IMG/VR virus record: IMGVR_UViG_3300005859_000005
Location: 1-30,373 of that record
Length of the DNA stretch: 30,373 nt
Reading direction: 5' to 3' (one strand)
Source of the DNA: a virus
The notes beneath the pieces are model-generated. The model ran no database searches. It worked only from the letters and a program-made list of their open reading frames with translations, and was not told the origin of the DNA. Numbering within the stretch: the first letter of the stretch is position 1; each line of letters starts with the position of its first letter. The translations under genes and the position numbers were made by a program. Shown one piece after another: positions 2,628 through 30,259 of the stretch.

Positions 2628-3191
2628 ATGGGAAATTTAAGAGTTCAAGTTCAATATAAAGATGGGAAATACCCTTACTTTTTCGATAAGGAGTTAAATA
2701 TAACTGGAATAGGTTCTAGAAATAAAGGTAGAGTTATTTATACGAGCGGGAAATTGGTTAAAGAAGAAAATGGGAAAAGTTATATTGATTTTGAACAGAT
2801 TAGTCCAATAGTTGTTAAACTACAAAATGCTAAAATAACGGTTACACAGTTAGGAACTTTAGTAATAAAACCAGAAGAAGGTTCAACACTTTATGTTGTA
2901 GAAATTCCAGGCGGATATAGGGGAAGTCCTACTACTGAAATTTTATATGGAGATTGCCAGAAGACTAGTATATTAATGTCTCCTGCTGGAAGTTTAGGCG
3001 TTATAGAACATCTTTGGTGTAATGGGAATAGTGAATTTTTGTACAGTATTTCTGGTAGAACTAGGACTGCTGGATTTGGAAGTCTTGTCGATTTATTTGG
3101 AGAAAATTTGAATGGGCGGATAGTAATAAGAGATGGAAATGTTAAGATAACTTATGATAAGGAATTAGATAAATTGTTAGATGATTCTTAA
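2628..3191 (+). CDS. Hypothetical beta-rich protein, 187 aa
   Basis: Not recognised by family. It is rich in glycine, valine and threonine with alternating hydrophobic residues (KLQNAKITVTQLGTLVIKP, GRIVIRDGNVKITYD), indicating a beta-sandwich or beta-barrel. Two cysteines (around residues 109 and 131) and a central Gly/Pro-rich loop (EIPGGYRGSP) are notable. There is no signal peptide or transmembrane helix. It begins a two-gene unit with the 44-codon gene 12 nt downstream. The glycine-rich composition differs from its lysine/asparagine-rich neighbours, suggesting a folded, possibly secreted or structural protein; this is inference. Start ATG 2628 lies 30 nt after the promoter box. Confidence 0.75.
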   Translation: MGNLRVQVQYKDGKYPYFFDKELNITGIGSRNKGRVIYTSGKLVKEENGKSYIDFEQISPIVVKLQNAKITVTQLGTLVIKPEEGSTLYVVEIPGGYRGSPTTEILYGDCQKTSILMSPAGSLGVIEHLWCNGNSEFLYSISGRTRTAGFGSLVDLFGENLNGRIVIRDGNVKITYDKELDKLLDDS

Positions 3192-3203
3192 AGAGGGATA
3201 AAA

Positions 3204-3338
3204 ATGGAAATAAAGATAATTTGTTGGGGAAAAGGTGGAGGATTAGTTTATTGGGCAGAAAATTACGAAGAAGAAAGAAAAATTACGGAATATTGTAAAA
3301 AGGAAGGTTTCGAAATTGAATACGAAATAAAACCGTAA
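3204..3338 (+). CDS. Small hypothetical protein, 44 aa
   Basis: The frame from ATG 3204 to TAA 3336-3338 encodes MEIKIICWGKGGG... with a beta strand, a KGGG loop and an acidic amphipathic helix (YEEERKITEYCKK), ending in a second strand (EIEYEIKP). It follows the 187-residue gene by 12 nt with a purine-rich site (AAAGAGGGAT) in the gap, so it is likely co-translated. The compact beta-alpha-beta layout and good ribosome-binding site argue that it is real despite its length. Function unknown. Confidence 0.6.
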   Translation: MEIKIICWGKGGGLVYWAENYEEERKITEYCKKEGFEIEYEIKP

Positions 3339-3346
3339 GTTAAATG

Positions 3347-3358
3347 TTCTTTTTTTCT
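3347..3358 (+). terminator. T-run terminator after the 2628-3338 unit
   Basis: TTCTTTTTTTCT on the sense strand 9 nt past the stop codon, followed by a second T-run near 3364-3371. U-tract termination without a hairpin is usual in archaea. Confidence 0.5.
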
Positions 3359-3386
3359 ATACCTATTTTTTATCTTCCTGAAAAGA

Positions 3387-3402
3387 TATATATTTGTCAT
3401 AA
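3387..3402 (+). promoter_or_regulatory. GTC-type viral promoter for the 3432-3617 gene
   Basis: TATATATTTGTCATAA, the TATATA variant of the box, 30 nt before the ATG at 3432. It supports this short gene as real. Confidence 0.75.
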
Positions 3403-3431
3403 TTTTTCAATTAATTTGGGATGATGAGAAA

Positions 3432-3617
3432 ATGGTTCTGACCGAGGAACAAAAAGAAATTTTAGAAAGAATGTATAATAGAACAGATTACATTATCCGA
3501 AAATATAAAGAATATTTAGATGCATTATCTGAATTTGATAAAACTGGTATATTGAAAATTCATGGGAAAGTTCTTTATGTAAGAAAATACAATAATCAAG
3601 AAAATGAAAATATGTAA
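3432..3617 (+). CDS. Small helical hypothetical protein, 61 aa
   Basis: Not recognised. Residues 4-36 form a long charged helix (EEQKEILERMYNRTDYIIRK) followed by a short beta hairpin (GILKIHGKVLYVRKY) and a disordered tail. Its first four residues, MVLT, equal those of the 70-327 protein, but no further similarity is evident. The GTC promoter at 3387-3402 and a T-run after the stop delimit a single-gene unit. Possibly a small DNA- or protein-binding factor; function unknown. Confidence 0.65.
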   Translation: MVLTEEQKEILERMYNRTDYIIRKYKEYLDALSEFDKTGILKIHGKVLYVRKYNNQENENM

Positions 3618-3710
3618 TTTTGTTTTCTTTTTTTATGTCAAATTTTTCTCTTGTTTGTTATAATATTACAAATGCTTAAAAAAATTTTGAATTCGAAAGA
3701 TAAAGAGGGT

Positions 3711-3726
3711 TTTATATTTGTCCTAA
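3711..3726 (+). promoter_or_regulatory. GTC-type viral promoter for the 3758-5037 operon
   Basis: TTTATATTTGTCCTAA preceded by AAAGATAAAGAGGG. The ATG follows at 3758 after AGGGGCG. Confidence 0.8.
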
Positions 3727-3757
3727 AAAATATGTAATTTTAGGGGCGAAAAAGCCC

Positions 3758-4486
3758 ATGACACAAGAAACCCAAGATAGGAAGTTTGAGATAAAGACAA
3801 TAAAAGAAGTAAAATATCTTCCTAATGTTTTCCAACTAAGACATCAAAATGGACAAATATCTACAATAACTACAAGTTATGGAGATTTTATAGATTGTAG
3901 ACCGAAAGAAGACAAGTTTTTTGGATGTCTTGAACTAAGAGATTATGAACTTAAGAGAACAAAAAATGTATATTATGTTCCTGGGATTCCGATATTCTAT
4001 ATAACATTTGAGAAAAGTTTATTCCAAAGTAAAAAACATGTAGAACCTATTGTTACAACAATTTTAACAAATTTTGGACTAATTGATAGAAATTTATTAA
4101 TTACATATACTGGACATGAAATACAAATGTATTCAAGATTCCATAAAGCACAATTACATGAATTTCCATTAATTCATGTCCATAAAAATTTAGAATTTTA
4201 CGAAGTTCCAAAAGCAGACCCTAAAGTTGAATATGACTTTGAGGACACAGACACAATAACAATCTATGATTATGAAATTAAATTTCCAGACATAGTTATG
4301 GTCTCGGAATTATATTCGGAGCCAGGGAAAGCATATCTAGTGTATCCAGAGAATAATATGGAAATAATTGTAACATCTTCCAAAAATGAAGGATTTACAA
4401 TTATGTTACATAAAGATAAATATTATCTTATAACTCATCCAGAAATAGAAGAAGAAAATGAAGGTGAAATGAATGGGAATTCTTGA
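3758..4486 (+). CDS. Hypothetical protein, 242 aa
   Basis: Not recognised. The protein is soluble and beta-rich, with recurring strands (FQLRHQNGQISTITTSYGDF, KAYLVYPENNMEIIVTSS, EGFTIMLHKDKYYLITH) that may represent two related beta domains, joined by an acidic linker around residues 150-170 (KADPKVEYDFEDTDTI), and an acidic C-terminal tail. No catalytic signature is seen. It is the first gene of a three-gene operon: its last 14 nt overlap the 4473-4787 gene, and the 4807-5037 gene follows. Overlap implies translational coupling, so the three products may act together, but the function cannot be read from the sequence. Confidence 0.75.
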   Translation: MTQETQDRKFEIKTIKEVKYLPNVFQLRHQNGQISTITTSYGDFIDCRPKEDKFFGCLELRDYELKRTKNVYYVPGIPIFYITFEKSLFQSKKHVEPIVTTILTNFGLIDRNLLITYTGHEIQMYSRFHKAQLHEFPLIHVHKNLEFYEVPKADPKVEYDFEDTDTITIYDYEIKFPDIVMVSELYSEPGKAYLVYPENNMEIIVTSSKNEGFTIMLHKDKYYLITHPEIEEENEGEMNGNS

Positions 4487-5333: not shown

Positions 5334-6044
5334 TTAAAATATCTTTTTTAATCTATCTACAATTTTTTCTATATCTTTTACGAACGATTTTACAGTACTT
5401 ACATCACTTTCTGGAAGTTCTAATATTAGTCTTTGCGTAACAATTTGTTCTAGATTATCAACTAAAAATTGATAGCTTTGGATAATGTAAGGGTCTGGAG
5501 GATAATTTACATAAATTCCAGTCTGATATTCATATTCAATAATTTCTGTAAAGTCATAAACTACAGTAAATAGATTCTGATTTAATGGAGTTACTTCCAA
5601 TAATTGTCCAGACAAACTTTGTAGACCAATAAAACCATATTCTGGAGCTATAATTACAGAGTTTGGCGGAATTTGAAAAACAAAAGCTATAGTTCTATTG
5701 TCCAATTTATTCCTTACAATTGCTAAAGAATAAAGTGGAATATTTTGCAAATTAGTTATAAAGTTTGACAAGTCATTGGCAAAATAAACTTCTGCAAAAG
5801 CATTTCCGAATAAATAGTTTGGAATTGTATAAGTCTGACCATTTAACGTTATTTCTGCCCCTCTGAGAAGTGATACAAGTATTGGGGAATTTGTTTTGTT
5901 TTGCATTATCCAATCTACTCTTCCTTGTGATTGATTGTATGTATAATATAGAGCCAATTTTTCATTTTGCCATAATAAGTTTGCATTTTGTGGTATAGAT
6001 GTATTTACTTTAATTTGTTTTATATCTGTATATGTCTTTCTCAT
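5334..6044 (-). CDS. Hypothetical beta-rich protein, 236 aa
   Basis: Not recognised. The body (residues about 20-180) is a series of beta strands with Asn/Gln/Tyr-rich composition (NEKLALYYTYNQSQGRVDWIMQNKTNSP, AEITLNGQTYTIPNYLF, RTIAFVFQIPPNSVII) of the kind seen in extracellular archaeal virus proteins. The C-terminus is helical and ends in an amphipathic helix (KSFVKDIEKIVDRLKKIF). No signal peptide is visible. The composition resembles the P564-like and beta-solenoid proteins more than the Lys-rich accessory proteins, so it may be a virion or surface-binding protein (inference). It has its own divergent GTC promoter at 6067-6082 and ends 22 nt from the opposing 5117-5311 gene. Confidence 0.72.
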   Translation of the reverse strand: MRKTYTDIKQIKVNTSIPQNANLLWQNEKLALYYTYNQSQGRVDWIMQNKTNSPILVSLLRGAEITLNGQTYTIPNYLFGNAFAEVYFANDLSNFITNLQNIPLYSLAIVRNKLDNRTIAFVFQIPPNSVIIAPEYGFIGLQSLSGQLLEVTPLNQNLFTVVYDFTEIIEYEYQTGIYVNYPPDPYIIQSYQFLVDNLEQIVTQRLILELPESDVSTVKSFVKDIEKIVDRLKKIF

Positions 6045-6066
6045 TTTAGTTCAAATTAAGATTAAA

Positions 6067-6082
6067 TTATGACATTTAAAAA
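6067..6082 (-). promoter_or_regulatory. GTC-type viral promoter for the 5334-6044 gene
   Basis: On the minus strand this reads TTTTTAAATGTCATAA. It forms a divergent pair with the plus-strand box at 6108-6123, 25 nt apart. Confidence 0.75.
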
Positions 6083-6107
6083 ACTTGAAAGTAAGGTTAA
6101 AAATATT

Positions 6108-6123
6108 TTTAAATATGTCATAT
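6108..6123 (+). promoter_or_regulatory. GTC-type viral promoter for the 6147-6668 gene
   Basis: TTTAAATATGTCATAT, 24 nt before the ATG at 6147. Confidence 0.75.
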
Positions 6124-6146
6124 TTCTAAACAGAATATGATTAGAT

Positions 6147-6668
6147 ATGTATATAGTTTTACGGGAATTGGATAAAGAAAAGTTTAGAAAAAATGTTATT
6201 ACATGGTTAGATGCGGATAATGTTATTGAAAGTTGTTATACTGATTTTAAGTACATTTTAACAGAAACAATAATCCAAATGATTTCTGAAACTGTAGAAA
6301 AAGATGATTGGAATTTACAATATTTTAATGACAAAGAATTAGAAAAATTGTTTAAAGCGTTTATGGAAAATTCTAAAATTACAGTACAATTAGTTAAACA
6401 GATTAATGAGATAAATTATGCATTTGATGAAATTATTGTTGAATTTGATTTATCAGAATTTGAGAAGAAAGAAATTGCAGAAATATATCTTGATAATATA
6501 CTTAATGAATGTCAATATCTAGAAAGATGTATATTTGATAGTTTGGAGGAAAAAAATGTAGATTTAATAGCAGAACTTCTTAATGACCAGACTTATCAAA
6601 TTCTAAGTCCCGAAGAAATAAAGAACAAATTTAAGAGCAAAATAGAGAAAATTATAAATAACGAATAA
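6147..6668 (+). CDS. Hypothetical protein, 173 aa; tandem paralog of the next gene
   Basis: No named family. A mostly helical, acidic protein. It shares with the 6756-7304 product an ordered series of motifs: LRELDKEKF/LKELDKYKF near the start, ESCYTDFK then TIIQM, a DDW/NDW tryptophan, KxFxAFMENS, and a C-terminal LSPEEI-x3-FKxKIE. Between these, the central strand (FDEIIVEFDLSEFEKKEIA) also matches. The two genes are therefore a tandem duplication that has diverged strongly while both kept separate GTC promoters. The conserved ESCY and AFMENS blocks are the best candidates for a functional surface. No catalytic signature, membrane helix or zinc site is seen. Confidence 0.75.
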   Translation: MYIVLRELDKEKFRKNVITWLDADNVIESCYTDFKYILTETIIQMISETVEKDDWNLQYFNDKELEKLFKAFMENSKITVQLVKQINEINYAFDEIIVEFDLSEFEKKEIAEIYLDNILNECQYLERCIFDSLEEKNVDLIAELLNDQTYQILSPEEIKNKFKSKIEKIINNE

Positions 6669-6710
6669 TTTATATTTTAAAAAATCTCTAAATTAAAATT
6701 CAAAGGCATT

Positions 6711-6726
6711 TTTATATTTGTCATAA
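6711..6726 (+). promoter_or_regulatory. GTC-type viral promoter for the 6756-7304 gene
   Basis: TTTATATTTGTCATAA. With transcription starting about 26 nt after the TATA centre, the ATG at 6756 is downstream of the start site, whereas an in-frame TTG at 6735 would be at or before it. Confidence 0.8.
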
Positions 6727-6755
6727 TTTATAAATTGATTCGAGAGGATAAAAAA

Positions 6756-7304
6756 ATGATAAATCAAATCGAAAATATAGTTTTAAAAGAATTAGATAAA
6801 TATAAATTTAATGAGAATATAGAATCAGGATTAAAATGGGATAATATTAGTGAAAGTTGTTATACAAATTTCAAAGATATTATAGTCAAAACAATAATCC
6901 AAATGGTTCATGAAATTTTAGATGGAAATGATTGGAAAATTAAAGCTTTTGAAAAGAATAAGAAAGAAAAAATATTTAATGCATTTATGGAAAATTCTAG
7001 TTTTGAAGTTTTATTAAGTAAATCAGATAACACATTAAAAAAAGTTATTGTAGAACTTAATTTCACAGAAGACGAGAAAAAGAAAATAGCAAAAACATAC
7101 ATAGACTCATTGTTAGAAGGTTACTATTATTTAGATATATGTATTTTTATTGATTTAGACGAAATAAATGTAAATACAATTTCGAAAGTTTTAAGTGACG
7201 AAGTTTATAGATTGTTAAGTCCAGAAGAAATAATAGAGAAATTTAAAGATAAAATAGAAGAGGCTATTAATGTAATAGAAGGTTATAACGAAGATTTTGA
7301 ATAA
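6756..7304 (+). CDS. Hypothetical protein, 182 aa; tandem paralog of the previous gene
   Basis: Paralog of the 6147-6668 product, sharing LKELDKYKF, ESCYTNFK, KTIIQM, NDW, AFMENS and LSPEEIIEKFKDKIE in the same order. ATG 6756 is preferred to the in-frame TTG 6735 because a purine-rich ribosome-binding site (CGAGAGGA) lies just before the ATG and the promoter position makes the TTG unlikely to be transcribed. The last 22 nt overlap the end of the convergent transglycosylase-like gene. Function unknown. Retention of two diverged copies suggests distinct targets, as often found for host-interaction proteins; that is inference. Confidence 0.75.
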   Translation: MINQIENIVLKELDKYKFNENIESGLKWDNISESCYTNFKDIIVKTIIQMVHEILDGNDWKIKAFEKNKKEKIFNAFMENSSFEVLLSKSDNTLKKVIVELNFTEDEKKKIAKTYIDSLLEGYYYLDICIFIDLDEINVNTISKVLSDEVYRLLSPEEIIEKFKDKIEEAINVIEGYNEDFE

Positions 7305-8230
7305 ATGTTTTTTTCTTTTTCTTTCTTTTTCTTTATCATTTTTTCCTTTAATATATCGTTAGCAATTCTATAATTTCTAATTATTTCTAACGTTAATCTG
7401 TCTAGACCCATTTTCCTTAATTTGTTAGCATATCTTGTATATTTGTTATCTATATTCCATTTGTTGTAAAGTAACATGTAAGCGTTAATCATTTCTAGAA
7501 TTTTTCTATTTGTTAAATCATATTCAAATGGGAAGTGAATCTTGTCTAAAAATTCAAATAATTGTTCTTTTTCTTCTTCCGTAATCTTATACCTTTCCCT
7601 CTCTGTTCTTCTATTTCCTACATATTTTCTTCTTCCGTCGAACCAATAGATGTCTCTATATGCCATAGTCTTTGAATATGACGCTGTATCCATACTATCG
7701 GCAAAGTTAAAAGCTTGTAAAAAATATGGAGCTACCATACCAAGAACGTGAAGATAAGGAACTTTCCGTCTTACGTAATAAACCCATGGAAATGTATAGA
7801 TTAGAACTTTCAATTTTGAAGAAGCTACAAGACCTCCTATTGCAAAATAGTAAGTATATTGTTTATAAAAATCTATAGCTTCGTCTACATCTTGAATTGG
7901 ATAGATATGTATGACGGGAATAATTTTTTCTATCCATTCCATTTTTGTGTAAAGATATTCAAAATATTGAAAATTTCGTTTGTCTAGAGGAGAAAACATA
8001 CTGGCAATATCAAGAGAAAAAAAGGCATAAGCGTCCAATCGTTTATATTTTTCTAGAATATCCTTCACAGAAATATGTAGATTGTAAAGTACAATTTGAT
8101 AGCCCCCGCTATCTACCCATGTCTCATTTTTCCATGTTATTTTTTTGAAACGTAATTGGTTAATTAAAACTGGAAAATTTGTCTTTAAAATATAGGTCGA
8201 TGTTGAGCTTAAACCAAAGACAAGTTTCAT
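7283..8230 (-). CDS. tRNA-guanine transglycosylase-like protein, 315 aa
   Basis: The fold is read from TGT-superfamily motifs in order: V-D40-S-G-G-Y-Q (TGT: DSGGFQ, containing a base-binding Asp), S-L-D74 (second pocket Asp), I-G-G at 131-133, H161-V-L-G-M (TGT: HxxGxG), and F-A-D178-S-x-D181-T-A-S-Y, where the nucleophilic Asp would be expected. TGT enzymes exchange guanine for a 7-deazaguanine in tRNA, and DpdA relatives do so in DNA. The protein has no cysteine at all, so the C-x-C-x2-C zinc site of tRNA TGTs is absent. It ends in a Lys-rich tail (residues 296-309). Rudiviruses are known to carry TGT-like genes, and this is probably that family. Its ATG overlaps the permease stop by one base (TAATG), implying a coupled operon. 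Substrate (tRNA, DNA or none) is undetermined. Confidence 0.72.
   Translation of the reverse strand: MKLVFGLSSTSTYILKTNFPVLINQLRFKKITWKNETWVDSGGYQIVLYNLHISVKDILEKYKRLDAYAFFSLDIASMFSPLDKRNFQYFEYLYTKMEWIEKIIPVIHIYPIQDVDEAIDFYKQYTYYFAIGGLVASSKLKVLIYTFPWVYYVRRKVPYLHVLGMVAPYFLQAFNFADSMDTASYSKTMAYRDIYWFDGRRKYVGNRRTERERYKITEEEKEQLFEFLDKIHFPFEYDLTNRKILEMINAYMLLYNKWNIDNKYTRYANKLRKMGLDRLTLEIIRNYRIANDILKEKMIKKKKEKEKNIYSKSSL
7307..7335 (+). terminator. T-rich terminator lying within the opposing gene
   Basis: An almost pure T/C tract (runs of 7, 5 and 5 T) starts just after the plus-strand stop. On the minus strand the same bases encode the lysine-rich tail of the transglycosylase-like protein, so one sequence serves as terminator and coding sequence. 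Confidence 0.5.
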
Positions 8231-9423
8231 TATTGTTCTCCATTAATCATCTTCTTTCTTAAGACGTATATAATTCCTCCAATTATAGGCAATAATAATA
8301 TTCTTAATATTGTATATATGAGATTTCCTTCTATTACAAAGTTATAGAATACTTGGTTTTGTAGTCCTAGATAAAAGAATATAAATATCTGTAGTGCTAA
8401 ACTTGTTAGTACTATTGTAAATATTAATTTATTATTTGTTAATTTTAAAAATGCAAAACTTACAATAAGGAAATTCCAGAAAATGAATAATATACCAGTA
8501 AATCCAAATGAGATTGTAAATCCTAAAACATTTTCTAAAACATTAGTAATTGTATCAACAATAAAGATTAATAATAAAATGTTAGGCGTTAATTTAGCAA
8601 ATTTTTCTGGGAGAATTCTATCAAATGCAAAGCTTTGAATTAAACGACTTTGAATTAATGAATTTACAAAAAGATAGCTTAGATACCAGATTGGAAATAA
8701 AATAAACAATATATTCAAATTAGAAAAACTATCTAATATTGATAATATTGTAACTACTAAATAACTTCCAAAATATCCAATTTTCATGGCTTTATTTACG
8801 TTTTTTGATTCTCCAGCTATATAACTAATTGCATTTATGAACAGAAACATAGACAAGTCAAATAGTAAGGCTGAAAGTAAAGTATTCGATATTATGAAAC
8901 TTTGAAATTCAAAATGAAAGCCTGAAATTGGAAGAAATATTGATACAAGTATCTGTAGAATAGCTAATCCATCTACTATATATCCATATATTGATTTTTT
9001 AACTATACTGACAAGAGTTATTACAAATAATAATTCTGAAATTAAGAATTTATCAATTAGTGAAATATTAAAATTCATAAGTACCAAATCTGTCAAGACT
9101 GGGGCTGAGAATATATACGTTAGCCATAACGAGATTCCGAAAATTGTATAGAATTTCGGAGAAAATGTATTTCTAATGTAAGCATAATCTCCACCGTTAA
9201 GAGGAATTTTCTTAGTTAGAATATAATACATTACGAGAAGTGGAATTTCAAAAATAGCTCCTAATATTATAGCTAATAATAGATTTACATTTTTCATCAT
9301 TTGAGAGACAAAAATTGGATAACTTATTCCGCTCAAAATTCCCATGTAAAGAAGATTGATAGAAAAAATATCTAATGAATTGAAACTTTTAATAATTCCC
9401 GAACTTTTTCTTTGGAATTCCAT
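8230..9423 (-). CDS. APC-superfamily permease, 397 aa
   Basis: An integral membrane protein with about 11-12 hydrophobic segments spread over the full length (near 18-41, 46-68, 87-112, 123-144, 148-166, 175-200, 213-232, 236-258, 280-300, 304-324, 328-348, 365-387). APC signs are visible: an N-terminal GILSGISYPIFV segment where the broken helix 1 of the family lies, a G-G-D-Y-A-Y-I loop followed by the GISLWLTYIFSAP helix, and near residue 200 the family hallmark A-G-E-S-K-N-V-N-K-A-M. APC carriers move amino acids, polyamines or related compounds; the substrate here is unknown. Length is slightly short of the usual 430-500 residues, but both ends look intact. It is the first gene of a minus operon with the TGT-like gene, under a GTC promoter at 9439-9453. 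A transporter is very unusual for a rod-shaped archaeal virus. Confidence 0.85.
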   Translation of the reverse strand: MEFQRKSSGIIKSFNSLDIFSINLLYMGILSGISYPIFVSQMMKNVNLLLAIILGAIFEIPLLVMYYILTKKIPLNGGDYAYIRNTFSPKFYTIFGISLWLTYIFSAPVLTDLVLMNFNISLIDKFLISELLFVITLVSIVKKSIYGYIVDGLAILQILVSIFLPISGFHFEFQSFIISNTLLSALLFDLSMFLFINAISYIAGESKNVNKAMKIGYFGSYLVVTILSILDSFSNLNILFILFPIWYLSYLFVNSLIQSRLIQSFAFDRILPEKFAKLTPNILLLIFIVDTITNVLENVLGFTISFGFTGILFIFWNFLIVSFAFLKLTNNKLIFTIVLTSLALQIFIFFYLGLQNQVFYNFVIEGNLIYTILRILLLPIIGGIIYVLRKKMINGEQ

Positions 9424-9438
9424 ATTTCAACTCAAGTT

Positions 9439-9453
9439 TTATGACTAATTTAA
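9439..9453 (-). promoter_or_regulatory. GTC-type viral promoter of the permease/transglycosylase operon
   Basis: Reads TTAAATTAGTCATAA on the minus strand, 16 nt before the permease ATG. It shows that the operon is wired into viral transcription rather than being a passive host fragment. It diverges from the box at 9475-9490. Confidence 0.7.
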
Positions 9454-9474
9454 GACTTTCTCAAAATTTAAAGA

Positions 9475-9490
9475 AATAAAAATGTCCTAA
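9475..9490 (+). promoter_or_regulatory. GTC-type viral promoter for the 9507-10077 unit
   Basis: AATAAAAATGTCCTAA carries the GTCCTAA core with a weaker TATA half. The ATG follows at 9507. Confidence 0.65.
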
Positions 9491-9506
9491 AATATATGTA
9501 ATACAT

Positions 9507-9875
9507 ATGATAAGAGAATATAAGTTAAGGGACAACGTAATTGTAAAGATAGATAAAAGTCAAGCTGAAGTAATTGTAAATGACAAATATAGACTTTTTT
9601 TAACGTTAATTACAGATGCAATTATTGTTAGTTATAATGATATGACTTTGTCTATCACTTTTGATAAATTTAATCCAGAAAAGTTGGCTAAAAAAATCCA
9701 TATTATTGTTAGGCAATCTCATAGATTCTCAATAACATTAATTAAGGAAGTTCTAGAATTAATTGTAATTGATAATTTATATAATGATATTATTGAAGAA
9801 ATTAAGAAATTAAAAGAGAAAAAAGATATTAATACATTAAGAAAAGTTTACGATTATTTATCTCGAATGGAGTGA
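9507..9875 (+). CDS. Hypothetical protein, 122 aa
   Basis: Not recognised. An N-terminal beta sheet (NVIVKIDKSQAEVIVNDKYRLFLTLITDAIIVSYND) is followed by helices including a charged C-terminal helix (DIIEEIKKLKEKKDINTLRKVYDYL). Soluble, no zinc or membrane features. It forms a two-gene unit with 9880-10077, which starts 4 nt after its stop. Function unknown. Confidence 0.72.
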   Translation: MIREYKLRDNVIVKIDKSQAEVIVNDKYRLFLTLITDAIIVSYNDMTLSITFDKFNPEKLAKKIHIIVRQSHRFSITLIKEVLELIVIDNLYNDIIEEIKKLKEKKDINTLRKVYDYLSRME

Positions 9876-12772: not shown

Positions 12773-13255
12773 ATGTCTATAAATTTCAAAGACTATTTCT
12801 GTAAGTTAGAATGTTGTTATTGGCATGAATTTGAACAAGCTTATGGAAAATTAAATGTAAAAGATAGAACAGTTACAATAATTGGTAATGATTGTGGAAG
12901 TACGGCGTTATATTTCATTTTACGTAATGCTAAGAAAATCATTGGGTTTGAAAAAGAAGAAAAATTAAATCAATTGTTCAAAGAAAAAGTTTGTAAGGAT
13001 TTTCAGATTTGTGATAAAGTTGAGATACATGGGGGATGGACTGGAAATCAATATCCAAACACTGACATTTTCGTGATTGATTGTGAAGGATGCGAATCAA
13101 AACTTGATATTTCTCAATTACAGAAATATAAACAATTCTGTATAGCTATACATGATTGGACTGAAAATAGATTTGATTTAATGCGAAAATTATACGGAGC
13201 TATCCTAACTTTTATAAGTAAGGATAATAAAGAATTTGTATTTTGTAAATTATGA
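12773..13255 (+). CDS. SAM-dependent methyltransferase (FkbM-like), 160 aa
   Basis: A minimal Rossmann methyltransferase. Motif I is V-T-I-I-G-N-D-C-G-S-T-A at 34-45, an acidic residue ends strand 2 (I-G-F-E60), and D-I-F-V-I-D103-C-E105-G near 98-106 matches the ID-x-EG motif of FkbM-type O-methyltransferases. Eleven cysteines in 160 residues is high, possibly for stabilising disulfides. Rudiviruses encode a conserved small methyltransferase next to their virion genes, and this is very probably that protein; its target is unknown. It starts 9 nt after the 269-residue gene with GGTGAT as ribosome-binding site. Its stop touches that of the convergent solenoid gene. Confidence 0.8.
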   Translation: MSINFKDYFCKLECCYWHEFEQAYGKLNVKDRTVTIIGNDCGSTALYFILRNAKKIIGFEKEEKLNQLFKEKVCKDFQICDKVEIHGGWTGNQYPNTDIFVIDCEGCESKLDISQLQKYKQFCIAIHDWTENRFDLMRKLYGAILTFISKDNKEFVFCKL

Positions 13256-15244
13256 AATACATTGGTTATTTATAATTTTTGCATTTCCATAAATATATAT
13301 TGCACCAGTATTTTGTTTACAAATTAAATTTTCTATTACAGCATTATCATATAAATATATATCACCAACATTATTTTCTATATATAAAGTTTTTATATAT
13401 GCATTATTATATAATTGAATTTTACCATTATTAGTTTCTATATTTAATATGTTTACATATGTATTATTATTTAAATATACATAATTATTTTCTGTTCCTA
13501 TATCAATTGTATTAATAGAAACATTATCTTCTATATTTATTCCGTTATTGTCAATTTCTATATTAATTGAATTTACAGAAGAATAATTTTCTAAAAACAT
13601 TGTTTTATTATTAATCTGAACATTTATTGTATATATTTTAGAATAATCATTTAAATATATGCCTCCATTTTCTTGTTGTACATTAATTATAGTAATAGAA
13701 CTATTGTCATTTAAATCTATTCCGCCATTATCAATTTTTATATTAATTGTTCCGATTAACGTATTATCATTAAGTAATATTGTATTATAATTAACATTTA
13801 TGTTTAATGTATGTATAGAAGAATTGTCATATAATTCAATTAATTCATTATTTGTATTTATATTTAAAAAGTTTATATATGAATTGTTATATGGAAATAT
13901 AAATCCATTATTATAATTAATTATTAAATTTGCAATTGTACCATAAATAAAAATATCACTTGAATTACTATAAATTAAAAAGTTTTTAATATAAATATTT
14001 TGAGAAATTGTAGGACTAATTTGTAAATTTGTAATTAAGACATTCAAAAATGTAGATATCGAATTTAATAAATTATAAAATTCATAGCCATAACAACTAA
14101 ATAAAAAGTATTGATTATAATTAAAAGTTAAAAGTTGATTAACATTATAAACTATATCTACAAATTGTAAAGCTTTCACGATTTCATCAGACTGGACATG
14201 TGAAAGATTTTTTTGTAATTGTATATTAACAAAATTTGCTAATTCTATAATTGCATCAATTAAAGAGTTAAAATAGTCTGCAGTTAATGGAAGTCCTTTT
14301 TTAGCATGAATAAGTGGTTTGAACATGTAAGGTTGGAAATTTTTATAGAAATCATAAAAATCAAGAATTGCATAAGTTATATTTTGCGGATATGGAAATT
14401 GAGACAAATATTTTATGTATTTATAAATACTATAAGCTAGATATAAATCTTGTACAATTTCATTCCAAAGTTTTGAAGATATTATAGAATGTTTTTTTGG
14501 CGGGGTTAATAATTTTTTAATTTGATAGACCGATACACATGAATAATGTTTACAAGATAATGGTGAAACAATATTATATGGAATATTATTTGAATTTAAG
14601 AAATCTATAACTTGTTGGTCTGCAAAAAATACTATTTGTGTATAGGATATTATGCCTGGGTTTGCACATATACCTGATGTTGCAAATTTTACAGTTATAT
14701 TATCTACATATACAAACATTTGGCAAGCTGTTGTTACTAAATAATTATTTAAATTGTTTAGAAAAACTGCTACATAAAAAGTCGAATTATTACAATAATT
14801 TGTTACATTTATTGTTTGGACTTGACAGCCTGAACATGTTCCTACTGTTACCGAATATCCATAGTTACTTTCTATGTTCATATTTTGGATTAGAGAAATT
14901 GTCGTATTTTTAAAAGACATAGTTAAATTTTGTTCGATTTCACAAACATTGGTCTTATATAAATCAATTCCTTGTGGATAAATCATTATTAACATATAAT
15001 ATCCTTTATAATTTGACAAATTTATGTTAAAATCCGTTCCAACTTTAGCAAATCCAAAGGCATCATGATTTATACAAAAAGAACCGGCATTTCCATGACT
15101 AAATGGACATTTTGAGAATAGAAATATAACTAAAGAATTTACAGATAATGAAAATTGTAAAGATGTAAAATTTACAGGATATACTGTAAACATACCAATT
15201 ATTCCAAAATTTTGATTTAATTGTACACAATAATTTGAAGACAT
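13250..15244 (-). CDS. Beta-solenoid putative adhesin/fibre protein, 664 aa
   Basis: Three parts are visible. Residues 1-230 form a Cys-rich beta domain with about 11 cysteines (including C-S-G-C and C-K-H-Y-S-C), suited to disulfide-stabilised extracellular folding. Residues 240-420 are helical (HSIISSKLWNEIVQDLYLAY; DAIIELANFVNIQLQKNLSH). Residues 443-662 are eleven consecutive 20-residue repeats of the form xxxNNGxIxLxDNSxIxTINI, with a degenerate repeat before them; regular 20-residue periodicity with inward Ile/Leu/Val is typical of a right-handed parallel beta-helix. No enzyme motif is seen. Location directly downstream of the P564-like gene suggests a virion surface or receptor-binding protein (inference). 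The start codon is 2 nt after the stop of the predicted frameshift extension of the upstream gene. Confidence 0.75.
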   Translation of the reverse strand: MSSNYCVQLNQNFGIIGMFTVYPVNFTSLQFSLSVNSLVIFLFSKCPFSHGNAGSFCINHDAFGFAKVGTDFNINLSNYKGYYMLIMIYPQGIDLYKTNVCEIEQNLTMSFKNTTISLIQNMNIESNYGYSVTVGTCSGCQVQTINVTNYCNNSTFYVAVFLNNLNNYLVTTACQMFVYVDNITVKFATSGICANPGIISYTQIVFFADQQVIDFLNSNNIPYNIVSPLSCKHYSCVSVYQIKKLLTPPKKHSIISSKLWNEIVQDLYLAYSIYKYIKYLSQFPYPQNITYAILDFYDFYKNFQPYMFKPLIHAKKGLPLTADYFNSLIDAIIELANFVNIQLQKNLSHVQSDEIVKALQFVDIVYNVNQLLTFNYNQYFLFSCYGYEFYNLLNSISTFLNVLITNLQISPTISQNIYIKNFLIYSNSSDIFIYGTIANLIINYNNGFIFPYNNSYINFLNINTNNELIELYDNSSIHTLNINVNYNTILLNDNTLIGTINIKIDNGGIDLNDNSSITIINVQQENGGIYLNDYSKIYTINVQINNKTMFLENYSSVNSINIEIDNNGINIEDNVSINTIDIGTENNYVYLNNNTYVNILNIETNNGKIQLYNNAYIKTLYIENNVGDIYLYDNAVIENLICKQNTGAIYIYGNAKIINNQCIS
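13259..13918 (-). repeat. Coding repeat array: eleven 60-nt units
   Basis: Encodes residues 443-662 of the solenoid protein. Every unit is exactly 20 codons, anchored by an N-N or D-N turn and a T-I-N-I-like strand. The units are diverged at the DNA level, so this is an old array maintained by fold selection. Confidence 0.75.
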
Positions 15245-17306: not shown

Positions 17307-18125
17307 TTATGTTACTTTGAAATTTTTCATATATTCTATAACTTTCATAATATCAAGATGTGTATCTTTTTGGATTTGTAATATGTAATTTTGGTCTTGT
17401 AAAATCTGTAATATTTTATCTTTGTTTTGTACAAAGAAATTATAGAGTTCTGGATGATTTTGATACCAATCATTTTTTCCATTTTTCAAGTCATTATCAA
17501 TTTCTCCAAGAAGAAACGCTAATTGTTTAGTATCAATTTCTTTTCTAATTGGTTTAAATATTACACCAAGTACAGAGAAATAGGGTTTATATTTGAAAAG
17601 ACACATGTTAAAATTTCTTCCTTCTTTACAACTTATTTTCTTTGGATTGTAAATTTTAGCTACTAAGCCCTCAAGTCTTTCTTTAGTTATAACATTGATT
17701 AAATCATCTACATTAAGATAAATTTCTGGAAACCAATTCCAAATTCTACTGTCAATCCTTAAAGGGTGTACATATTTTCCAAGTTCTTTGTCAAAGACAT
17801 CATAGATGATAAATTGCGGAATTTCATTTTGATGGATTTGTAATGCTGACGTCTTTTTATGTACAAGTTCTCCATGAATAATATAGTTTTCATGGTCTTT
17901 TAAATAGTTAATAACTTCCTCAATTCCTGGAACTTTCATAAAGAGTTCTTGGAAAGATTTGTCATGTGGAATATCTTTTCTAGTGTGAATTTTTAATTCA
18001 TTTTCATATTTCAAACATATATGTGTTCCATCATATTTTATTTGATAATATGACTTTTCTTCTAGATTTTTTAAGTCTTGATAACTTATACTTTCCGCTT
18101 CGTAACGACATGGATTCAGTTCCAT
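17307..18125 (-). CDS. Covalent nucleotidyltransferase: ATP-dependent DNA/RNA ligase, 272 aa
   Basis: All core motifs of the ligase/capping superfamily appear in order: motif I K30-Y-D-G-T (K30 the adenylated lysine), a motif Ia-like H-T-R-K50, motif III I-H-G-E86-L, motif IIIa F-I-I-Y-D-V-F at 105-111, motif IV E152-G-L-V-A-K157, and motif V L-F-K178-Y-K180-P. About 90 helical residues follow motif V; they do not look like the OB fold of DNA ligases, which favours an RNA-ligase (Rnl2-like) architecture, though a minimal DNA ligase cannot be excluded. The enzyme would seal nicks via an AMP-lysine intermediate. It sits between the P1070- and P564-like virion genes with its own GTC promoter, like an inserted cargo gene. 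I know of no ligase in SIRV1/SIRV2. Confidence 0.8.
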   Translation of the reverse strand: MELNPCRYEAESISYQDLKNLEEKSYYQIKYDGTHICLKYENELKIHTRKDIPHDKSFQELFMKVPGIEEVINYLKDHENYIIHGELVHKKTSALQIHQNEIPQFIIYDVFDKELGKYVHPLRIDSRIWNWFPEIYLNVDDLINVITKERLEGLVAKIYNPKKISCKEGRNFNMCLFKYKPYFSVLGVIFKPIRKEIDTKQLAFLLGEIDNDLKNGKNDWYQNHPELYNFFVQNKDKILQILQDQNYILQIQKDTHLDIMKVIEYMKNFKVT

Positions 18126-27867: not shown

Positions 27868-28185
27868 TTATAATTTTTTAACCAAATCCCTTATTAAACT
27901 TTTATCTGCAATTGTAAGTTTTAATTCTGGATTGTTAAGGATACTTGTACTTCCTGATTCCTTAACAAGTATAGCTAAATCCCTATGTAATAATCTTGAA
28001 CGATTAGGTCTAATATGATAAAACTCCAGATGAATAGATAGTCTACCAGTTTTCATTCCGCATATTGGACATCTGTAATTGTCAAAGTGTTTTTCCATAT
28101 GTCTCTTAAATTCTGTTTCGTTCTTTAATTCTATCTTACATAAATAACAATAGAATTTTTTCGGAACTCCTTTTATAGCTCCCAT
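27868..28185 (-). CDS. Two-finger C2H2 zinc-finger protein, 105 aa
   Basis: Two classical fingers: C13-x2-C16-x12-H29-x3-H33 and C39-x2-C42-x9-H52-x4-H57, followed by a conserved block H57-I-R-P-x2-S-R-L-L-x-R-D-L-A-I-L-V-K-E. The gene upstream (28204-28521) encodes a paralog with every zinc ligand in the same place and the same C-terminal block. Expected to bind DNA or RNA as a regulator. A TATA-like TTTTATAAG (28195-28203, minus) overlaps the end of the paralog gene and may give it a separate promoter; otherwise it is read through from 28537-28552. Confidence 0.82.
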   Translation of the reverse strand: MGAIKGVPKKFYCYLCKIELKNETEFKRHMEKHFDNYRCPICGMKTGRLSIHLEFYHIRPNRSRLLHRDLAILVKESGSTSILNNPELKLTIADKSLIRDLVKKL

Positions 28186-28203: not shown

Positions 28204-28521
28204 TCATAATTTTTTCGAAAAATACCAAATTCTTTCTTTTTGTGAATGTGTTAATTCTATATTTAATTCCTTTAAGATTTTTGTAGTCCCGGCTTCCTTA
28301 ACAAGTATTGCTAAATCTCTGTATAACAGTCTAGAATGACTAGGTCTAATATGGAAAAGTGTGAGATGTTTCGATAAATCTCCAGTTGGAAATAGGCATA
28401 ATGGACATCTTAAATTGTCGTAATGGTTATATATATGTTTCTTAAATTCTTTTATAGACTTAACTTCTGTCTTACAAATTGGGCAATAATATATTTTTTT
28501 CATTCCCTTACCTATTCCCAT
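28204..28521 (-). CDS. Two-finger C2H2 zinc-finger protein, 105 aa; paralog
   Basis: Fingers C13-x2-C16-x12-H29-x3-H33 and C39-x2-C42-x9-H52-x4-H57, then H-I-R-P-S-H-S-R-L-L-Y-R-D-L-A-I-L-V-K-E. The start is set at ATG 28521, because an upstream in-frame ATG (28545) lies inside the promoter's GTCAT and because this start gives the same length and N-terminus (MGIGKGMKK against MGAIKGVPKK) as the paralog. The 18-nt gap and shared organisation indicate a tandem duplication. A regulatory, nucleic-acid-binding role is expected from the fingers; targets unknown. Confidence 0.82.
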   Translation of the reverse strand: MGIGKGMKKIYYCPICKTEVKSIKEFKKHIYNHYDNLRCPLCLFPTGDLSKHLTLFHIRPSHSRLLYRDLAILVKEAGTTKILKELNIELTHSQKERIWYFSKKL

Positions 28522-28536
28522 AAAATATATTATTTT

Positions 28537-28552
28537 ATATGACATTTATAAA
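28537..28552 (-). promoter_or_regulatory. GTC-type viral promoter of the zinc-finger pair
   Basis: Minus strand reads TTTATAAATGTCATAT, 16 nt before ATG 28521. Confidence 0.75.
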
Positions 28553-29854: not shown

Positions 29855-30259
29855 TTAGCTTACGTATCCGTTAGGATTGCCTACAATTATATTAGTTACA
29901 GCATCAAGAATTTCTGGATTAGCGTTAAAAGCTGATATATAGTAAGCCTTTAATCCAGCTATCATATTCGTTAATGCTTGTCCGCCTCCAAGCCTATTTA
30001 AAGCTCTAGCAATTTTCATACCATAACCCTGATAAATTGCCCTACTAGGCCCAGTAACACCGTATTCAGAAAGTACGGCAGATACTTGTTCATTTACAGC
30101 TACGAATTTAGGAGCATTGGCTTGGAAGTTTTGCTGGGCTATTGGAGCTACATTAGTCAATATTGTGTTAGCTACAGTTGGATTGGAAAATGCTGTAAAT
30201 TTGGCTTGCCATTTCGCATATCTTTGTGCATAATCTCTTGGGGTATGACCTCTTGCCAT
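29855..30259 (-). CDS. Major capsid protein, 134 aa
   Basis: I recognise the rudivirus coat protein: the same length as SIRV P134 and the characteristic stretches ARGHTPRDYAQRYAKWQAKF, TAFSNPTVANTIL, VNEQVSAVLSEYGVTGPSRA, IYQGYGMKIARALNRLGGGQ and the C-terminal GNPNGYVS. The protein is all-helical; in rudiviruses dimers wrap the DNA in A-form inside the rod. The basic N-terminal segment faces DNA in known structures. Codon use is richer in G/C than the neighbours, as expected of a very highly expressed gene. The promoter has a TATA at 30286-30298 and an upstream palindrome at 30313-30336, but no GTC. Confidence 0.95.
   Translation of the reverse strand: MARGHTPRDYAQRYAKWQAKFTAFSNPTVANTILTNVAPIAQQNFQANAPKFVAVNEQVSAVLSEYGVTGPSRAIYQGYGMKIARALNRLGGGQALTNMIAGLKAYYISAFNANPEILDAVTNIIVGNPNGYVS

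Follow-up and report, generated by a model that had tools for sequence, protein, structure and literature searches.

A DpdA-like transglycosylase gene beside an APC-type permease gene in a SIRV-type rudivirus, and related gene clusters on host chromosomes

A permease gene and a TGT-like gene in a rod-shaped archaeal virus

The window analyzed here, i.e. the whole stretch of DNA, comprises 30,373 bases and corresponds to an entire IMG/VR record for a virus. It encodes a major coat protein at 29855–30259 (Pfam Sulf_coat_C, E 7e-72), and its DNA resembles that of SIRV-type rudiviruses, with SIRV8 as the best match (78% across most of the query region). The virus is a rod-shaped archaeal virus of a hot spring, and the nearest relative found is another IMG/VR contig (3300005859_000008), with 89–90% identity in enzyme and permease alike. 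The features of the locus are:

7283..8230, minus strand: DpdA/TGT-like base transglycosylase, 315 aa (phrog_887, AlphaFold2 model, fold and profile matches)
7688..7690, minus strand: D181, predicted nucleophile, in D-T-A/S-S/T-Y (arcTGT Asp249 equivalent; alignment)
7748..7750, minus strand: H161, equivalent of a conserved DpdA histidine (9g H196; alignment)
8096..8113, minus strand: motif D40-S-G-G-Y-Q, base pocket and predicted general-base Asp (arcTGT Asp95 equivalent; alignment)
8228..8241, minus strand: junction GGAGAACAATAATG, with a Shine-Dalgarno-like GGAG and a 1-nt stop/start overlap (sequence)
8230..9423, minus strand: APC-superfamily amino-acid-type permease, 397 aa (phrog_8289, Pfam and PDB profile matches)
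9443..9453, minus strand: promoter-like element TTAAATTAGTC upstream of the permease (kept in most related upstream regions)

Both open reading frames lie at the coordinates given in the initial annotation, whose observation is confirmed. The longest reading frame in 40 dinucleotide shuffles of the window is 137 aa, and therefore neither the 315-aa nor the 397-aa frame is due to chance. The two had been described as fused at TAATG; the genes do overlap by one base, with position 8230 common to the enzyme-side ATG and the permease TAA stop, but the proteins are not fused. A GGAG lies 7 nt upstream of the ATG and, together with the stop/start overlap, would suit translational coupling of the two genes. 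The exact TAATG overlap is not conserved among the SIRV-group relatives compared; the arrangement as same-strand neighbors is kept across the group, with gene spacings of −4, −1, +2, and +8. At the other end of the pair, two tandem and apparently paralogous small reading frames lie on the plus strand (6147–6668 and 6735–7304), the second of which runs toward the DpdA-like gene and overlaps its 3′ end.

The pair had also been placed under a viral GTC promoter. The GTC motif AAATTAGTC is located at 9443–9451, 19 nt ahead of the permease start codon, and is not rare by count, with 3 occurrences in the window vs 1.8 expected (i.e. not enriched). Its position is what stands: TTAAATTRGTCATAA is kept at the equivalent place in most of 12 aligned permease upstream regions that are otherwise divergent, with SIRV1 and SIRV2 carrying a diverged form.

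The gene pair is not new, as it is already annotated in all SIRV-type rudivirus records. Specifically, the neighboring genes of SIRV1 to SIRV11 carry the RefSeq names "queuine tRNA-ribosyltransferase" and "aminoacid permease" (e.g. gp13 = ORF310 and gp14 = ORF399 in SIRV2). These pairs are orthologous to that of the window and share its order and strand, differing only in sequence (66–80% amino acid identity) and in stop/start spacing; across SIRV-group homologues, identity is 65–90% for each protein. Beyond the SIRVs, both genes have homologues in SBRV1 and SRV, with further permease homologues in SSRV1 and ARV2 and further enzyme homologues in STSV1, STSV2, and STSV4. A published account calls gp13–14 absent from SRV (PMC6315595), contrary to the diverged homologues we find in that genome (7486–9607). 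The view that it is exceptional for a rod-shaped archaeal virus to carry a transporter is wrong, as 34 database records contain a permease of this family. A count of archaeal viruses that have DpdA-like or G+ genes included 12 Ligamenvirales and 2 Bicaudaviridae (Hutinet et al. 2019; PMC6884629), with the SIRV proteins presumably among them; the mass spectrometry in Table 2 of that study covers no rudivirus and none of those Ligamenvirales or Bicaudaviridae.

Relationship of the viral enzyme to phage DpdA and to arcTGT

Assignment of the 315-aa protein to the TGT superfamily is borne out by an AlphaFold2 model, fold search, profile alignment, and two aspartates. The protein matches phrog_887 (E 4.7e-62), as do the DpdA proteins of phages 9g and MS1. 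It has no match in Pfam, NCBIfam, or PADLOC, including the DpdA models of NCBIfam and PADLOC, which match even 9g DpdA only weakly. Sequence searches of the PDB gave no usable match either, and the fold search alone succeeded. The model, built with 20 viral sequences (pLDDT 89.3, pTM 0.87), has the (beta/alpha)8 catalytic fold of TGTs, and the best 50 solved structures listed are all TGTs. Pyrococcus arcTGT (1iq8/1j2b) and human QTRT1 (7nq4) align with VIA Z scores of 20.9–21.1 and an rmsd of 2.9–3.5 over ~260 residues, the match to arcTGT being confined to residues 1–281. The fold search cannot favor DpdA, because no DpdA appeared among the solved structures.

Sequence profiles place the enzyme closer to the DpdA of phages than to the arcTGT of hosts. 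Using hhalign, the probability is 97.4 for phage DpdA (E 1.2e-11, 205 columns) vs 83.6 for Sulfolobales arcTGT (146 columns), and the profile of the viral family (A1) finds the DpdA of MS1 (1.6e-8) and 9g (8.4e-6) and no host arcTGT reading frame in the same sequence set. The sequence similarity to DpdA is remote nonetheless; tblastn to MS1 DpdA yields E 1 and 22.6% identity.

The residues predicted to be catalytic point to the same superfamily. D40 is invariant in the viral, host, and phage DpdA rows, and its motif aligns to DSGAYQ of host arcTGT. D181, equally invariant, aligns with the aspartate in FDSASY of arcTGT and in ADSTS and CDSSS of DpdA; its role as nucleophile is that of established TGT chemistry. 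H161 corresponds to the conserved DpdA histidine named in phage 9g (H196; PMC6884629). Host arcTGT has a histidine at this position too, and H161 alone does not separate DpdA from arcTGT.

The likeness to phage DpdA (9g, Dp-1/MS1) extends to length (311–317 aa), PHROG family, and the equivalents of D40, D74, H108, H161, and D181, all of which the enzyme has in common with both 9g and MS1 DpdA. The differences are that 9g and MS1 have preQ0 synthesis genes beside dpdA, while none is recognized beside the window gene, and that modification is documented in phages, while the rudivirus counterpart is known here from genes. With arcTGT, the viral enzyme shares the catalytic core fold and the Asp pair. 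Host arcTGT proteins are, however, ~500 aa long and score above the Pfam TGT cut-off. The viral enzyme contains no cysteine, and therefore has no Cys-Zn site of the tRNA-acting arcTGT/QTRT type; the PUA-containing C-terminal part of arcTGT is also absent from it (no Pfam match). An identity as a split ArcS N-domain was considered and dropped, the enzyme having kept the TGT aspartates, which ArcS is not known to have.

Membership of the TGT superfamily, with phage DpdA as nearest relative, makes DNA base modification the best guess for the activity of the enzyme. The enzyme tree sets the rudiviral proteins off as a clade distinct from one that unites host and STSV proteins (93/87 and 85/94), and their capture by rudiviruses is thus either old or from an unsampled source.

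A chromosomal cluster with the enzyme homologue in Sulfolobaceae

Host genomes were reached by a scan for Sso7d, and 31 Sulfolobaceae genomes were compared. Of the 31, 18 have a full-length homologue (~290 aa) of the viral enzyme on the chromosome (profile A1, E 1e-86 to 1e-111), and a 19th match is a fragment. In all 12 loci first examined, a DUF5591-cluster protein is encoded within a few kb of the enzyme, mostly overlapping or adjoining it. DUF5591 forms the core of ArcS, the archaeosine synthase (NF040592, E about 1e-20); when Thermoproteota were searched for true ArcS, no match over the cut-off was obtained. In STSV2 and STSV4, too, the enzyme gene has a DUF5591 gene as its neighbor.

Among 14 loci examined in depth, 9 have this pair followed by four co-directional genes in one operon, namely a HerA-type ATPase (PF01935), a ~1015-aa BrxC/D-like ATPase, a coiled-coil protein, and NurA (PF09376). 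The BrxC/D match of the ~1015-aa protein is weak (E 5e-4, below cut-off). In each of 6 unlinked cases examined, HerA, the ATPase, and NurA occur together elsewhere on the genome, with the fourth gene recognized or positionally equivalent. HerA-NurA also serves ordinary DNA repair.

The 18 of 31 genomes with the BrxC/D-like ATPase are precisely those with the enzyme homologue, and in a 300-genome sample of the phylum this ATPase is found solely in genomes with that homologue. Identical sets would arise by chance with a probability of 4.8e-9 when phylogeny is ignored. On the arcTGT tree, the trait changes 4 times on the best tree and 2 times on well-supported branches, and a phylogeny-corrected test cannot reach significance because there are too few independent changes. 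Seven Saccharolobus-like genomes of the SIRV host group (Sso7d 97–100% identical, both parts full) all carry the enzyme and the ATPase.

The resemblance between this cluster and the window lies in the enzyme family. The copies of hosts and STSV fall in a clade of their own and have a DUF5591 partner, whereas the rudivirus has the enzyme alone. The host operon, new here, is a candidate undescribed defense or DNA-modification system; a literature search revealed nothing pairing DUF5591 with HerA-NurA, and with most subscription journals outside that search, "undescribed" is provisional.

Proposed roles of the enzyme and the permease

Considering the fold, homology, catalytic residues, adjacency, and co-occurrence together, we lean slightly toward an enzyme of the DpdA type that marks DNA and is connected to a modification-restriction-like system of the host, with the permease as a separate passenger. 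In such a scheme, the viral enzyme would take preQ0 or a derivative from the host archaeosine pathway and would probably swap guanine for a 7-deazaguanine in viral DNA, which the viral copy would thereby either mask or label with the mark of the host itself. The host module looks like a modification-dependent DNA-degradation (defense) system, and HerA/NurA would read the host mark that the virus may imitate. The permease would share the operon of the enzyme in the SIRV lineage only. Phage data fall on both sides: in favor, CAjan loses its modification upon deletion of dpdA, and the modification protects phage DNA; against, DpdA-only phages have trace 7-deazaguanine (7–11 and 50 per million nt) or none (Orion) (PMC6884629).

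A fuller version is a Sulfolobaceae 7-deazaguanine modification-restriction system, where DpdA-like and DUF5591 proteins mark DNA, HerA/BrxC-D-like/NurA degrade unmarked DNA, and rudiviruses and STSV-type viruses carry the marker to pass as self. We regard this as a tentative proposal, with somewhat less than an even chance of being right. Should the favored reading be right, the SIRV protein that has long been annotated, but not studied, as a "queuine tRNA-ribosyltransferase" would mark DNA, and the paralogue in the hosts would indicate a defense cluster on archaeal chromosomes in which 7-deazaguanine marking is combined with HerA-NurA.

Among the strongest facts against a DNA-marking or defense function is the normal growth of mutant SIRV2MII, which lost 5678–8557, i.e. 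gp13 and nearly all of gp14. All mutants of that study except the last propagate like SIRV2, and in S. islandicus LAL14/1 delta-arrays SIRV2MII replicates as the wild type does (PMC6315595). The gene pair is therefore dispensable in SIRV2 in the laboratory. The cluster is present in 7 of 7 Sso7d-like genomes of the host group of LAL14/1, a set that LAL14/1 itself is outside. The host enzyme may thus act in trans for the mutant, or the cluster may not restrict.

Action on host tRNA is an unlikely alternative to DNA marking by the viral enzyme. The protein would then be a small paralogue of arcTGT, lacking PUA and zinc, that changes decoding or tRNA stability during infection, consistent with its TGT fold and with tRNA enzymes as its best structural matches. 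The STSV2 protein also matches arcTGT weakly (TIGR00432, E 1.8e-4), and the DUF5591 encoded next to the enzyme in STSV and hosts forms the core of the tRNA enzyme ArcS. However, full-length arcTGT is already encoded, in one copy each, in 29 of 31 Sulfolobaceae genomes, and this separate host enzyme means that tRNA archaeosine is already covered. The proximity of the enzyme profile to phage DpdA, its missing Cys-Zn site and PUA part, and the chromosomal homologues that travel with HerA/NurA DNA-processing genes all argue against a tRNA substrate.

The initial annotation further proposed one pathway for both genes, with the permease importing a base precursor or cofactor for the enzyme. The APC-type assignment of the permease itself is upheld, as phrog_8289 matches with E 5.2e-189, the sole Pfam match is AA_permease_2 (E 2.5e-5, below cut-off), and its profile (A2) aligns over nearly the full length with GkApcT (6f34/5oqt, E 1.5e-6/4.8e-6) and also matches AdiC (3ncy, 5e-4). 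NCBIfam and PADLOC yield no match to the permease. The AlphaFold model is helix-rich and, with a pLDDT of 42, too poor for use in judging a LeuT-type fold with 12 TM helices. Paralogues in Sulfolobaceae (E ≤ 1e-86) are 478–512 aa long, compared with 397 aa for the viral permease, and the permease tree separates viral from host sequences weakly (61/51). A profile search of genome contigs with the permease alignment yielded no match, and the neighbors of host permease genes gave no clear hint of a substrate.

A shared pathway would fit the adjacency of the pair on one strand across the whole SIRV group and the joint loss of both genes in SIRV2MII. A transporter-DpdA operon also has a precedent in Streptococcus virus MS1 (2749–4352), where a gene for a Vut_1-domain (QPTR-type) transporter overlaps the start of the DpdA gene. 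Outside the SIRV group, however, the linkage that had been expected does not hold. The permease occurs without the enzyme in SSRV1 and ARV2, where it adjoins a TFB gene, and the enzyme occurs without the permease in STSV1, STSV2, and STSV4. When both are present, they lie on opposite strands, adjacent and converging in SRV (7486–9607) and nearly 5 kb apart in SBRV1. The hosts also encode preQ0 genes: QueC and GAT-QueC-length proteins are found in 6 of 6 host genomes, and all G+ pathway genes are reported in Sulfolobi (Hutinet et al.; PMC6884629). With these proteins and arcTGT in the hosts, preQ0 should be in the cell and an importer is not needed. Finally, the preQ0/preQ1 transporter families are QPTR, QrtT, UPS, HlyIII, and MFS, with APC not listed (PMC11130926), and the permease, with AA_permease_2 alone in Pfam, falls in none of these five. 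We therefore consider one pathway for both genes improbable and the importer idea weakly supported, and infer that the permease acts as an APC amino-acid carrier, related to those of the hosts, separately from and independently of the enzyme; the initial interpretation as a whole is partly supported.

Least probable of all is a viral enzyme that is no working transglycosylase but a decoy or competitor that disturbs the host cluster, e.g. by titrating out a partner such as DUF5591 or the ATPase; rudiviruses do have the enzyme alone, without DUF5591 and the HerA-NurA module, but the catalytic residues are invariant across virus clades, and a decoy would not need them.

Other reading frames of the window, all on the minus strand, include a 272-aa RNA/DNA-ligase-like nucleotidyltransferase (17307–18125; PF09414 E 3e-7 and PF01068 E 2e-6, both above cut-off). 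An unnamed reading frame of similar size is at the same place on the SIRV8 map, and none is there on the SIRV2 map. The C-terminal half of a 664-aa protein (13250–15244) consists of short, imperfect, N/I/Y-rich repeats; this protein looks like a beta-helix and is possibly a fiber or adhesin. Two paralogous C2H2-type zinc-finger proteins are encoded in tandem at 27868–28185 and 28204–28545.
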